Position numbers and translations under genes: made by a program. The notes under the pieces were generated by a model, which worked only from the letters and a program-made list of their open reading frames with translations, made no database searches and was not told the DNA's origin. From a virus, in the IMG/VR virus record IMGVR_UViG_3300034355_001276, positions 1-43,169 of that record: a stretch of DNA of 43,169 nt. One strand, 5' to 3'. Positions 13,341 through 17,649 of the stretch are shown piece by piece; the first letter of the stretch is position 1; each line of letters begins with the position of its first letter.

Positions 13341-13496
13341 ATGTCAAGGGGTAAATGGAAAAAAGCCGAGAAACGCCAAAAGGCTATTCTGGTAATGCTT
13401 TCAGAAGTCGAGAGGGAAAGGCTAGAGGCGATCGCATCCTCAAGAAATCTATCCCTCTCGGAATTGGTCAGATATTGGATCAACAATAATGGGTGA
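13341..13496 (+). CDS. Ribbon-helix-helix (CopG/Arc-type) regulator
   Basis: 51 residues. A basic N terminus (MSRGKWKKAEKRQKA) is followed by the beta-strand AILVMLSEVERERLEAIA and the helix SSRNLSLSELVRYWIN, the RHH layout. It is transcribed divergently from the gene starting at 13273 and stops 14 bp before the first, degenerate CRISPR repeat. Such proteins usually repress their own promoter and neighbours. Whether it controls the CRISPR array is unknown. Confidence 0.75.
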   Translation: MSRGKWKKAEKRQKAILVMLSEVERERLEAIASSRNLSLSELVRYWINNNG

Positions 13497-13510: not shown

Positions 13511-14543
13511 GTATCAAATTAGTCAAGAAGCAAGACAATTGTTAACTGTTGATCCAATATCGAATAGTATCAAGTCAGTCAAGAACCAATACAATCATTA
13601 ACTTGTATAGTCCGAACTTTGGGGTAATTCGTTTGCTGCGAGGTATCAAGTCAGTCAAGAACCAATACAATCATTAACACAGCCCACGAATTAGCAGAAA
13701 AATTGGGGGGATTGTCGTATCAAGTCAGTCAAGAACCAATACAATCATTAACCTCCAAAACTTCCCCCCTAACCTTCTCAATTTCAGTTTGTATCAAGTC
13801 AGTCAAGAACCAATACAATCATTAACTTTTAGGCTCGGATTCTAATAGCTTGTATTTTCCATTGTATCAAGTCAGTCAAGAACCAATACAATCATTAACT
13901 CTGGGTAGAAGAACGGCAGAAATTAATAGATGAAGGTATCAAGTCAGTCAAGAACCAATACAATCATTAACTTGACTGGAAAGATTATCAAGATTGGGGA
14001 AGTTTGTATCAAGTCAGTCAAGAACCAATACAATCATTAACTCAATATCCCCAATTCAAATTTACCCCTGTTGACCGTATCAAGTCAGTCAAGAACCAAT
14101 ACAATCATTAACTCTAGGCACGTTATCTGATAAGACTACCTGACACAAGTATCAAGTCAGTCAAGAACCAATACAATCATTAACTGGTAGTGCAGCGTTC
14201 AATCCATCAGAAGCGTCTAGTATCAAGTCAGTCAAGAACCAATACAATCATTAACTATAACTTCAGCAGTAACGGGTGAAATATCAATATTGTATCAAGT
14301 CAGTCAAGAACCAATACAATCATTAACCGTTGTTCGGCTTTGTCCAGTTCCATAATTTCGCCGTATCAAGTCAGTCAAGAACCAATACAATCATTAACCT
14401 CACCTATTAACCAGAATAACAGATACTACCTGGCAATGTATCAAGTCAGTCAAGAACCAATACAATCATTAACCAAAATCCGAGTAATAGGATGAAATGA
14501 TCTCGGTGTATCAAGTCAGTCAAGAACCAATACAATCATTAAC
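13511..14543 (-). CRISPR. CRISPR array, 15 repeats and 14 spacers, next to iscB
   Basis: The 36-bp repeat reads on the plus strand GTATCAAGTCAGTCAAG... to ...CAATCATTAAC. Fourteen copies (13567 to 14543) appear identical; the leftmost (13511-13546) has six mismatches. Spacers from left to right are 20, 40, 38, 38, 37, 36, 34, 35, 36, 35, 36, 35, 39 and 34 nt. A degenerate repeat usually marks the leader-distal end, so I infer transcription on the minus strand from the iscB side, where the repeat begins GTTAATGATTG. The last repeat ends 15 bp from the iscB stop. No cas1, cas2 or interference genes are in the window. The 34-40 nt spacers resemble type I/III/V arrays more than the constant 30 nt of type II. 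I found no spacer matching elsewhere in the window by eye. Confidence 0.97.
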
Positions 14544-14558
14544 TGATTTGATAATAAA

Positions 14559-15857
14559 TTAACTAGAACTACTTACTAGCAATGGTTCGAGGCTTGAATA
14601 GGCATAACCATCTGATTTCTGAAGTAGGCTCAGGCATTTTGGGTGAACGTCCATCTTATCCAATGTAAAACTCGGACGTTGCCGGATCGCAATTCGACCA
14701 TAATGGGTTCCCTTATTCTTTCCAGATGGAATCACAGCCTTAACATAATCCCCTGTTTTATACCCTATAAAACTCTTAATTCTTGCTTTATGGCATTTAG
14801 GAAAGCCATACTTATCGGTTGTGACCCGTTGCCTTACCCCATGCCCTTTAGCTGATATTAATAAAGGTTTAACATCCTTAATAATCAGATTTTCGGGAGT
14901 AGAAGCACCAACGCAAGCCGCGTCAATCCAGTGAGCTTTAGGGAATTTTTGACGGCATCGGTTAAACTTAGTCCGTCCCCCCGTCCCAACTTCTACAGGT
15001 AAGCCAGTCTCCTTCAATCGTTTGTACAAGCACCACCGAGTAGAGTTAACGGCGGCTGCATCTTTGAGAGGGGCTTTAACCCGTTTCAGGATTTTATTAA
15101 GCAATTCCTTCTTTTTAGAAAGGAAATCTTTAATGTCCTTAGCACCCTTTTTTTGATTGCATTTATGGCAAGCGATCGCCAAATTAGAAACCCGATTACT
15201 CCCCCCTTTGGATCTGGGTATCAAGTGTTCAATCTCTAATCTGGTATCAACAGCGCCACAGTAAACGCATTGACGGTCAAACTTCTCCAAAAGGTATTCC
15301 CGAACTTCATACCCCGCTAACTCCCCTTGCTGATACTCGACACCGGAAACTTCTGGATTCTCCATAATTTGAGTGTCGAACCGTACCAATTCTTGAGATA
15401 TCGCAGAAATCGGAGCTAACTTTCTTAACCGATTAACCCAAGTGATCACATTTTCAACCCGTGACATTAGACTCGGAGCTAACCAACCCTTAACCCGTGT
15501 GCGATTAAGAAAACGGGGTTGGCGGTATCTGGTTTTTCTACCTCGGCGACCCCTTCTTAAACTGCGTCGGGATTCCAGTGCATTCTTGATCACCATGCCA
15601 CGATGTTGAATATCAGCACCCCAAACAACTTCACCCGTGCCGTCGTTTACCAAGGCAATGCCAGTAAATTTAGAGCCAGGATCTATCTTTAGCCTCAAGT
15701 CTTCAGTTGAAGATTTGACAGCATATTTTAGGATGATTGTAAAAGGTTGATGCCGAAAAACTGCGGCTTTCTTTTGAGTTAAAAGAATCCTAGCTTTTGC
15801 GGGTGAGATTGGATTTAATGGACGCTTTTCGGTATCCATCACAAAGACTTTAGACAT
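14559..15857 (-). CDS. iscB: IscB RNA-guided nuclease (RuvC plus HNH)
   Basis: 432 residues, within the family range. An N-terminal PLMP domain (residues 1-45, VFVMDTEKRPLNP, AAVFRHQPFTI) precedes RuvC-I with D59 (LRLKIDPGSKFTGIAL). An Arg-rich bridge helix follows (about 96-115, RRSLRRGRRGRKTRYRQPRF), then RuvC-II with E156 (SQELVRFD) and the HNH nuclease (C197-x2-C200, catalytic H211 in IEHLIPRSKGGS, C230-x2-C233). RuvC-III has H309 and D312 (KAHWIDAA), and a C-terminal target-motif-recognition part follows. All catalytic residues are present. IscB is the transposon-encoded ancestor of Cas9 and cuts DNA using an omega-RNA encoded just upstream. No TnpA transposase is in the window. The start overlaps the 3' end of the predicted omega-RNA, and the stop lies 15 bp from the CRISPR array. 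Confidence 0.96.
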   Translation of the reverse strand: MSKVFVMDTEKRPLNPISPAKARILLTQKKAAVFRHQPFTIILKYAVKSSTEDLRLKIDPGSKFTGIALVNDGTGEVVWGADIQHRGMVIKNALESRRSLRRGRRGRKTRYRQPRFLNRTRVKGWLAPSLMSRVENVITWVNRLRKLAPISAISQELVRFDTQIMENPEVSGVEYQQGELAGYEVREYLLEKFDRQCVYCGAVDTRLEIEHLIPRSKGGSNRVSNLAIACHKCNQKKGAKDIKDFLSKKKELLNKILKRVKAPLKDAAAVNSTRWCLYKRLKETGLPVEVGTGGRTKFNRCRQKFPKAHWIDAACVGASTPENLIIKDVKPLLISAKGHGVRQRVTTDKYGFPKCHKARIKSFIGYKTGDYVKAVIPSGKNKGTHYGRIAIRQRPSFTLDKMDVHPKCLSLLQKSDGYAYSSLEPLLVSSSS

Positions 15858-16110
15858 TTAAAAATAACTCTTTCGAGCCTCCGATAAATCGGGTAATGTG
15901 TGCCTCGTCAATGTTATTGGGCGGTACTATCTAAGTGACACTGACTTAATTGCTGTACATCTGTTTAATCACTTAGTTATAGAGCTTGGAACTGGCAACG
16001 CATCCCAAGGTATGAACTTAAACACTTCCCAATAACGTAGCTCAGTAAAGAGCTTAGACTGGTTAACTATTTACCAACAAACTACATTGGTAAATTTTGA
16101 TTCTTGACTG
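15858..16110 (-). ncRNA. Predicted omega-RNA (HEARO-type) for IscB, with 5' anti-repeat
   Basis: About 250 nt without a reading frame directly upstream of iscB, where IscB omega-RNAs (Rfam HEARO) are encoded. Visible structure, 5' to 3' on the minus strand: an anti-repeat-like segment (16097-16110); a hairpin TTTACCAA/TTGGTAAA (16070-16094); an AGCTC/GAGCT hairpin (16039-16054); a 9-bp long-range stem joining 16028-16036 with 15913-15921 (GTTATTGGG); a CCGA/TCGG hairpin (15881-15892); and CTC-GAAA-GAG with a GNRA loop (15868-15877), ending by the iscB start. The usual omega-RNA has a guide at its 5' end. Here that position holds CAGTCAAGAATCAA, complementary to the CRISPR repeat. Exact ends are predictions. 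Confidence 0.82.
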
Positions 16111-16115
16111 TTTTC

Positions 16116-16144
16116 ATTATACACAAATAACGTAAAAAAAACAA
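16116..16144 (-). promoter_or_regulatory. Promoter of the omega-RNA / iscB transcript
   Basis: On the minus strand, TTGTTT (-35, 16139-16144) is followed after exactly 17 bp by TATAAT (-10, 16116-16121). Transcription would start around 16108-16111, that is at or within a base or two of the anti-repeat. There is therefore no room for a normal variable guide ahead of it. Confidence 0.65.
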
Positions 16145-16168
16145 GTTTATTTGTGTATTTTTAAAAGG

Positions 16169-16612
16169 TCAAGAGCAAAAGCAATCGTCAACCTTACTAA
16201 TCTCGATATCAACGCACAAATCCTTGAGTCGCTCATAAGCCACCACCGGATCGGCTTCAAAATCAACCGGACTAGATCCGTCCATCGGCAAGTCTGACAC
16301 CGCCCCCAATGGCTCATAAGCCCTTGATTTATTATTCCAAAAAAATACTCGGTTAATATGTCGCTCTGCTGCTTCGGGGGTTTCCAAGAAACAATAGATC
16401 AACCCCGTAACAATTGCCTGCCGGACATCTGTTCTGAATCGCCGTTTGTCGAGTTTGATCGTCCACAATTCGGTCAGGAGTTCCTCGTCGGTGGCAGCAT
16501 CATACCAGAGACACTCACAAGAGAATGTGTGGAGGTCGTTGGCATGAATTTTTTGGGCGGGTTGAAATCCTTTTTTAGCGGGTTTGGTTTTGGCTTTAGT
16601 TAATGTTTTCAT
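16169..16612 (-). CDS. Hypothetical protein downstream of dcm
   Basis: 147 residues: a basic N-terminal tail (KTLTKAKTKPAKKG), then an alpha/beta region with C..WYDAATDEELLTELW and a C-terminal Cys pair (DDCFCS). It starts 2 bp after the dcm stop, so it is co-translated with it, and it is the last gene of the replication operon. No recognised domain. It ends 25 bp before the -35 box of the omega-RNA promoter. Confidence 0.65.
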   Translation of the reverse strand: MKTLTKAKTKPAKKGFQPAQKIHANDLHTFSCECLWYDAATDEELLTELWTIKLDKRRFRTDVRQAIVTGLIYCFLETPEAAERHINRVFFWNNKSRAYEPLGAVSDLPMDGSSPVDFEADPVVAYERLKDLCVDIEISKVDDCFCS

Positions 16613-16614
16613 GG

Positions 16615-17649
16615 TTAGTTAATTGATTTTAAGATTGCCAGACCTAATTCTTTAGCCAATAACGGAGGCACGGCGTTTCCTATTATTTGTTGGCTTAAAG
16701 TTTTGGATTCTGGGAATTGATAGGAGTCGGGGAAAGTCTGGAGCCGTGCCGTCGCTTTCTGACTAATTCGTTTAACTTGACTTCCCTCCATGATGTCCGC
16801 CCAGTGGGTATGCCGCCCCGATGCCATAGCTCGAATTGTTGGGCAGGGTTTGTCCGAGGGGGTTGGGAGGATATTTTTGATACAAGCGCCTGCACGGGGG
16901 ACTAATAAAACGGGTGAATGGTAGCCACTATGATCGGTTAATAGGGTAAAACTCGGATCGTTCCCATCTCTGGCCGTAGCTGGTTTATGTCGATTCTTAC
17001 TAATATCAATCAAGGCTTTTTCTGGCAAATAACCCAATTCATTCAGTCGCTTAATCTGCCAGTCTGCAAGCTCACAATCACTCATCTCAGGGATTAAATC
17101 ACTAATAGCTTGATACCATCCCTTTCTAGGCTTTGATTCGGGAAAATATGGGAGGGGTTCTGAGTTTTTGACCGCCCACATGATTAATCGTTTCCGGTTC
17201 TGTGGAACCCCATAATCCGCCGCGTCAAGAATCAACCAATGGTAGCGATATCCGTAGCGAATTAAGGATTGTAGAATCTTCTCGAATACAGGTGATTTTG
17301 AATATCCTGGGACGTTTTCTAAAACTACCCATTGAGGATCAATCGCTGCGATATAACTGCTACAGTACAGCCCCGCGTCCTTGTCTTTGTGATCACCTAA
17401 ATTACCCCGTCTAGCGTTTGAATACTGTTGGCACGGGGGACTCATCCAAAGCAGGTCAACATAGGGAAGACTGCGGGGGTTTATGTCTCCTGCGCAAGAA
17501 TTAAATACTTTGGTATTTGGGAAATTTAATCGTGCTACTTCTGCAATTTTAGGATCTCTTTCAATTCCCCATAAAGACTTAAACCCTGCGGCCTCTAACC
17601 CCAAATCTGCACCGCCACCGCCTGTAAATAATGTTGCAAATGTTAACAT
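16615..17649 (-). CDS. dcm: DNA (cytosine-5) methyltransferase
   Basis: 344 residues with the C5-methyltransferase motifs in order: FTGGGGADLGLEAAGF (I, AdoMet binding), PPCQQYS with catalytic C73 (IV), ENVPG (VI), PQNRKRLIMWA (VIII), a target-recognition region, then QKATARLQTFPDSY (IX) and QIIGNAVPPLLAKE (X). It transfers a methyl group from AdoMet to C5 of cytosine. No cognate restriction enzyme is adjacent, so it is probably a solitary phage methylase that protects against host restriction. It shares a base with the upstream gene's stop (17649). Confidence 0.93.
   Translation of the reverse strand: MLTFATLFTGGGGADLGLEAAGFKSLWGIERDPKIAEVARLNFPNTKVFNSCAGDINPRSLPYVDLLWMSPPCQQYSNARRGNLGDHKDKDAGLYCSSYIAAIDPQWVVLENVPGYSKSPVFEKILQSLIRYGYRYHWLILDAADYGVPQNRKRLIMWAVKNSEPLPYFPESKPRKGWYQAISDLIPEMSDCELADWQIKRLNELGYLPEKALIDISKNRHKPATARDGNDPSFTLLTDHSGYHSPVLLVPRAGACIKNILPTPSDKPCPTIRAMASGRHTHWADIMEGSQVKRISQKATARLQTFPDSYQFPESKTLSQQIIGNAVPPLLAKELGLAILKSIN

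Follow-up and report, generated by a model that had tools for sequence, protein, structure and literature searches.

The DNA analysed here (hereafter, the window) is the whole 43,169-base IMG/VR virus record IMGVR_UViG_3300034355_001276, and the system of interest is its iscB gene with a HEARO RNA (omega-RNA) and an adjoining array of clustered regularly interspaced short palindromic repeats (CRISPR). Judged by its sequence, the window is a PaV-LD-like phage of Planktothrix, a bloom-forming cyanobacterium. The gene order of DnaB helicase, C5 methylase, locus and integrase is the same as in the Planktothrix phage PaV-LD, in agreement with an earlier reading of the bare sequence (the original prediction) that had proposed a phage-like carrier; an array of such kind is absent at the corresponding place in the PaV-LD genome. 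The locus has the following features, with lengths in amino acids (aa) and nucleotides (nt).

14559-15857, minus strand: iscB, 432 aa, with RRXRR and HNH domains (Pfam; homology to OgeuIscB and other solved IscBs)
15893-16108, minus strand: HEARO RNA (omega-RNA) scaffold, upstream of iscB (Rfam RF02033, 125.2 bits)
13567-14543, minus strand: CRISPR array of 14 identical 36-nt repeats (GTTAATGATTGTATTGGTTCTTGACTGACTTGATAC) with spacers of 34-40 nt
13511-13546, minus strand: degenerate terminal repeat with 6 mismatches and a 20-nt spacer before it
16097-16110, minus strand: candidate anti-repeat, resembling a trans-activating CRISPR RNA (tracrRNA), with 14 contiguous pairs to repeat nt 14-27
16069-16095, minus strand: P3-like omega-RNA hairpin inside the junction, 16085-16095 with 16069-16079 (cofold)
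16062-16067, minus strand: 3' strand of helix P1, GUUAAC; the cis 5' partner is missing, and repeat nt 1-6 can supply it (Rfam alignments)
16111-16172, minus strand: leader/promoter region upstream of the anti-repeat (two promoter candidates)
14474-14507, minus strand: spacer s004, iscB-proximal, 30/34 to a PaV-LD-like phage, 3' flank ACGG
13679-13716, minus strand: spacer s008, 37/38 to Planktothrix agardhii plasmids, 3' flank GGGG

The intact iscB gene of the original prediction was borne out (Pfam RRXRR 8.8e-73, plus HNH; phmmer against OgeuIscB, 9e-29), and the columns invariant among relatives include D59, E156, H211, H309 and D312. The protein aligns over the IscB length, and a Cas9 recognition (REC) lobe was not found in it. 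What had been described as a 15-repeat array consists of 14 exact repeats and one degenerate repeat, and the repeat block does end 15 base pairs (bp) from the iscB stop; as minus-strand RNA, the repeat reads GUUAAUGAUUGUAUUGGUUCUUGACUGACUUGAUAC. Fifteen bases of the terminal 20-nt spacer (13547-13561) are an exact inverted copy of sequence outside the array (13471-13485), and this spacer may thus be self-derived. The HEARO-like region expected upstream of iscB was recovered with the Rfam covariance model. A promoter scan of the leader region found no site above chance: candidate 1 (TTGACC-17-TAAACT, 16172-16144) scores 9/12, no better than shuffles, and candidate 2 (TATAAT, ~16119-16124) was read straight off the sequence.

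A protein search with IscB recovered 16 viral loci; in about a dozen, the protein is nearly the same as that of the window (94-100%). Further related loci were added through pattern searches for the repeat. Several records are one phage sequenced again, so distinct array types were counted instead, i.e., the window, the L014 variant, L015, L016/L017, L018/L019/L023, L021, L022 and the small L020. The layout of iscB, HEARO RNA and array is common to at least six related phage types with largely different spacers. Between most array types the spacers are almost wholly different and the IscB proteins are 94-98% identical to that of the window; L016 and L018 have a core of spacers in common and differ at their iscB-proximal ends, as expected with spacer gain there. 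Over the array types, 71 distinct spacers were collected, mostly of 34-40 nt. At the far end of the array in L018 (7110-7880) and L022 (3940-4710), small open reading frames lie between degenerate repeats, resembling gene cassettes within a CRISPR array, and a 28-nt repeat-like piece was seen upstream of thyX.

The omega-RNAs that accompany arrays differ from canonical ones in helix P1. Array-free canonical HEARO RNAs (L024, L039, L316, L060, L096 and L036) keep P1 in cis, with 6-7 of its 8 pairs. In the window, L015, L016 and L021, cis P1 is down to 4-5 of 8 pairs, conserved pair 3 is a C-A clash, and the two hairpins between the P1 strands are unrecognisable; the helix is broken in all displayed loci of the array clade, L022 excepted. 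The 5' end of the repeat, GUUAAU or GUUAAC (GUUAAY), pairs with the surviving P1 strand GUUAAC, which would place the spacer at the usual guide position of an omega-RNA. We also considered an ordinary cis-acting omega-RNA with a guide upstream of 16108, a merely degenerate P1 and an anti-repeat left over from an inverted copy of the repeat in the leader. Rfam does still align the segment as P1 (4-5 of 8 pairs), the upstream promoter candidate permits a 5' extension, and cis P1 is restored in L022. We hold this to be quite improbable, given that one of the broken pairs is conserved pair 3, the one that pairs with the repeat, that the supposed guide would overlap a TATAAT-like element conserved between phages, that the spacers show an IscB-type 3' motif (below), and that the array and its turnover would go unexplained. 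Separately, the HEARO RNA of L316 (2459-2670), on a Planktothrix agardhii plasmid, is a strong stand-alone one (151 bits) with no iscB annotated alongside.

The 14 contiguous pairs, one of them G-U, that had been proposed between repeat nt 14-27 and 16097-16110 are real. The bare stretch is only moderately unusual, as runs of 14 contiguous pairs, counting G-U, occur in about a dozen of 2,874 60-nt windows, and ~1.3% of shuffles attain the energy of the anti-repeat duplex. In joint folds of repeat and omega-RNA, the window, L015, L016, L018 and L021 all showed the 14-bp duplex and an internal hairpin of 11 bp, and the L022 fold was of a similar form. Helix P1 forms in the full-length window fold and in the L021 and L022 joint folds. 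The original prediction had also put forward a collinear three-block pairing, which is complete only in a duplexfold that ignores the folding of the omega-RNA itself. In the joint folds the 14-bp duplex stood, the P1 block was kept in the full-length window fold and some variants, and the middle block was replaced by a hairpin. As the main structure, this middle block (repeat 7-17 with 16080-16090) was rejected because cofolding favours the P3 hairpin (16085-16095 with 16069-16079); it is probably an internal hairpin instead. As modelled, the joint fold is similar to the HEARO topology, in which P1 encloses two hairpins; one of these would be opened into the repeat:anti-repeat duplex.

Of 155 predicted pair cells in five distinct repeat/omega-RNA pairs, 154 are maintained. 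Repeat position 27 and its partner appear as G-C, G.U and A-U, the kind of co-variation suggested for repeat and anti-repeat, and the base of the internal hairpin as A-U, G.U and G-C. The repeats of the window and L021 each bind their own type of omega-RNA more favourably than the other's.

Matches were found for 14 of the 71 spacers, five to PaV-LD-like phages and nine (s008, s022, s029, s036, s037, s058, s062, s064 and s067) to Planktothrix agardhii plasmids. All plasmid records matched, out of 72,556, are from P. agardhii, PaV-LD was the sole match among reference phages, and reversed-spacer controls gave zero matches. When the 14 protospacers are aligned in the orientation of the repeat, their 3' flanks show G at +3 (n = 12), GG at +3/+4, i.e., NNGG (n = 10), and NNRR (n = 12), and nothing comparable is seen in the 5' flanks. 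At random positions in the same records, 10 was never reached in 5,000 trials (p < 1/5000); the uncorrected binomial for NNGG is ~1e-11, for a motif spotted by inspection in this small set. OgeuIscB reads NNRR on the same (3') side (PMC9640706), and the flanking sequences thus support NNGG/NNRR as the side and kind of motif that IscB reads.

The two exceptions to NNRR are s028 (AAGT) and s033 (CATA). The latter alone matches its own phage, and does so perfectly; a self match without NNGG/NNRR is as expected if motif-bearing self targets are lethal. The same perfect match would suit a regulatory role of array and anti-repeat (e.g., control of the operon or resident genes by antisense action or self-limitation) in place of cutting, as gene regulation has been proposed for type V-U2 phage arrays (PMC6293099). 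To this role we give the least credence: the self match is without the motif, the residues expected to be catalytic are conserved, and foreign elements are matched by 13 of the 14 spacers.

Sister phages carry an alternative system at the same place. In L187 and three more records, the place of iscB holds a 557-aa Cas12f/V-U2-like protein (PADLOC Cas12u2, 1.1e-106) with a different array.

L187, 14353-16026: Cas12f/V-U2-like gene, with its array at ~16000-16680 (also L185, L186, L196 and L197)

Five clear protospacers of the Cas12f-like arrays have G-Y-Y in their 5' flank (GTT, GTT, GCT, GTC and GTT), and the 5' side of the protospacer is the side that Cas12 reads. The side of the motif, 3' for the iscB arrays and 5' for the Cas12f-like arrays, thus tracks the neighbouring effector and ties each array to its gene. 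Spacer s025 has a 36/37 match within the Cas12f-like gene of rival phages.

In other sister phages (L041, L042, L045, L050 and L053; five records), omega-RNA and iscB are absent and the leader and array are kept. There the leader segment ending AGTCAAGAATCAAGGTTTACCA enters repeat-spacer-repeat directly, so the segment bearing the anti-repeat is the array leader too. The L022 omega-RNA holds 15 nt of the repeat start at the leader/array junction seen in these sisters, and the first repeat of L022 encodes the C-terminus of its IscB. Deletion derivatives were also observed: in L025 (5001-5256), iscB is cut at residue 72-74 and fused exactly to the repeat 5' end, and L176/L177 have the leader and a truncated omega-RNA and no iscB. 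L173, L178, L202 and L204 have neither iscB nor array; in these, the end of a 147-aa gene (GTTGACGATTGCTTTTGCTCTTGAC) resembles half a repeat fused to the array trailer.

No cas1 was found in the window or in 18 related phage records, which are possibly incomplete and in which cas2 was not searched; spacer uptake therefore requires outside help, which may come from host Cas1-Cas2 or recombination. Among 62 genomes of one related cyanobacterial family, no Cas9 scored above cut-off. That the array was taken from the host chromosome was rejected because the repeat core is absent from 62 genomes of that family, in which the inclusion of Planktothrix is unconfirmed. The need for outside help, together with the leader and array kept without iscB in some sisters, would also be compatible with an orphan array used by class 1 Cas proteins of the host (I-D or III), like the mini-arrays of other phages, with a conventional IscB next to it by chance; spacers of 34-40 nt are usual in class 1. 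We regard this as unlikely. Type I relies on a 5' motif and type III on no motif, whereas here, in the orientation of the repeat, the motif lies on the 3' side of the protospacer and leaves two free bases (NNGG). The omega-RNA has lost cis P1 exactly where an array accompanies it, the repeat core is missing from the 62 genomes, and the CRISPR types reported for P. agardhii, I-D and III, have unrelated repeats (PMC9398003).

To gauge generality, arrays were sought at the 80 nearest bacterial IscB loci and at ~65 additional viral loci. An array joined to the omega-RNA was found only at L384, and L363 and L393 have arrays of other types nearby. At L384 (3600-3970), which encodes a viral IscB of 54% identity, an array lies upstream and its last repeat doubles as the HEARO RNA 5' end; the repeat (GTCTAAG...) pairs with GUUAGAC. 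At L393 (1780-2050), a viral contig that carries IscB, the array immediately downstream is of another, hairpin type (type I-F-like).

With the gene, scaffold, array, spacer diversity, spacer origins, 3' motif, loss of cis P1 and conserved pairing potential all read from sequence, we consider it quite probable that the locus is a phage-borne adaptive weapon built on IscB with an array-fed two-part guide. Transcription in one direction would cover leader, omega-RNA, iscB and array, and processing of the array transcripts would yield CRISPR RNAs (crRNAs) of the form spacer-GUUAAUGAUUGUAUUGGUUCUUGACUGACUUGAUAC. The first six bases of the repeat would stand in for the lost guide-side strand of P1, the spacer would thereby occupy the normal guide position, and repeat nt 14-27 would pair with the anti-repeat at the omega-RNA 5' end. 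Loaded with this two-part RNA, IscB would find targets with 3' NNGG/NNRR and cut competing Planktothrix phages and plasmids, and its spacers would be acquired by machinery in trans. A trans-acting omega-RNA that loads array-derived guides, as the original prediction had it, is thus supported in silico by the 3' motif, the broken cis P1 and the pairing.

Several observations weigh against an array-fed two-part guide. Leader and array persist in sister phages without iscB, the L022 omega-RNA has cis P1 again through its 15-nt copy of the repeat start, and promoter candidate 1 is far enough upstream to allow a cis guide. Compensatory changes number just two among five variants. Binding is better than for most shuffles at four of six loci, as proposed, with modest z values of about -2 to -2.5; the L016 and L018 repeats are near zero (z ~-0.4), with no clear gain over shuffles.

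We also think it likely that a natural IscB has here split its omega-RNA into a crRNA and a tracrRNA-like scaffold on a CRISPR memory, a step in a separate lineage like the proposed IscB-to-Cas9 transition, and that these phages deploy the IscB system, and a Cas12f-like CRISPR that is interchangeable with it, against competing phages and plasmids of a single host. IscB is the small ancestor of Cas9. The origin of the two-RNA, array-fed system of Cas9 from a cis-guided omega-RNA has so far been inferred from distant relatives (PMC9581776). This locus resembles a modern example of that step, in which the IscB is compact and the scaffold complete, so the step would be directly testable by repeat/anti-repeat swaps. 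It would also offer an IscB target motif shaped by natural selection, and an example of phages that carry exchangeable mini-CRISPR systems against competitors.

Known IscB-omegaRNA systems (OMEGA; HEARO, RF02033) and the window are alike in protein family (RRXRR, HNH, ~430 aa), upstream scaffold and NNRR-type 3' motif. Known omega-RNAs hold one guide at their own 5' end with P1 intact, whereas the window omega-RNA is without the guide-side strand and its guide is apparently derived from the array. Altae-Tran 2021 reportedly found a minority of iscB loci to be CRISPR-associated, and Zhang 2025 (cited in PMC12991159) is said to treat CRISPR-associated IscB; in the described cases, the array reportedly lies upstream, with its last repeat as the omega-RNA 5' end. 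An array beside iscB is common to these systems and the window. That upstream order is seen in L384. The window clade, by contrast, has its array downstream of iscB, a repeat that is physically separate, and an anti-repeat. The downstream array and the omega-RNA without a guide-side strand make the window clade a distinct variant within CRISPR-associated IscB, not a new category. CRISPR-associated IscB is already known as 'CasIscB' (PMC13180657), and it is the trans (split) arrangement on a phage that looks new.

HEARO RNAs have been placed outside CRISPR in the literature (PMC9755519). The repeat:anti-repeat of Cas9 corresponds to the guide-adaptor hairpin of IscB (PMC9640706), and a P1 strand has been proposed to have become the crRNA en route to Cas9 (PMC9581776). 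Type II CRISPR-Cas9 and the window are alike in a repeat:anti-repeat duplex (in silico for the window), a spacer 5' of the repeat, a 3' motif and a memory array; they differ in that the window effector is a 432-aa IscB with a full HEARO scaffold and that cas1 was not found in the window or the 18 related records. With the type V-U2 array of cyanophage CL131 (PMC6293099), the window shares a cyanophage carrier and a small RuvC-type effector beside an array of 36-nt repeats. The CL131 effector is Cas12/TnpB-like, whereas that of the window is IscB, with a Cas12f-like counterpart (5' motif) in sister phages.
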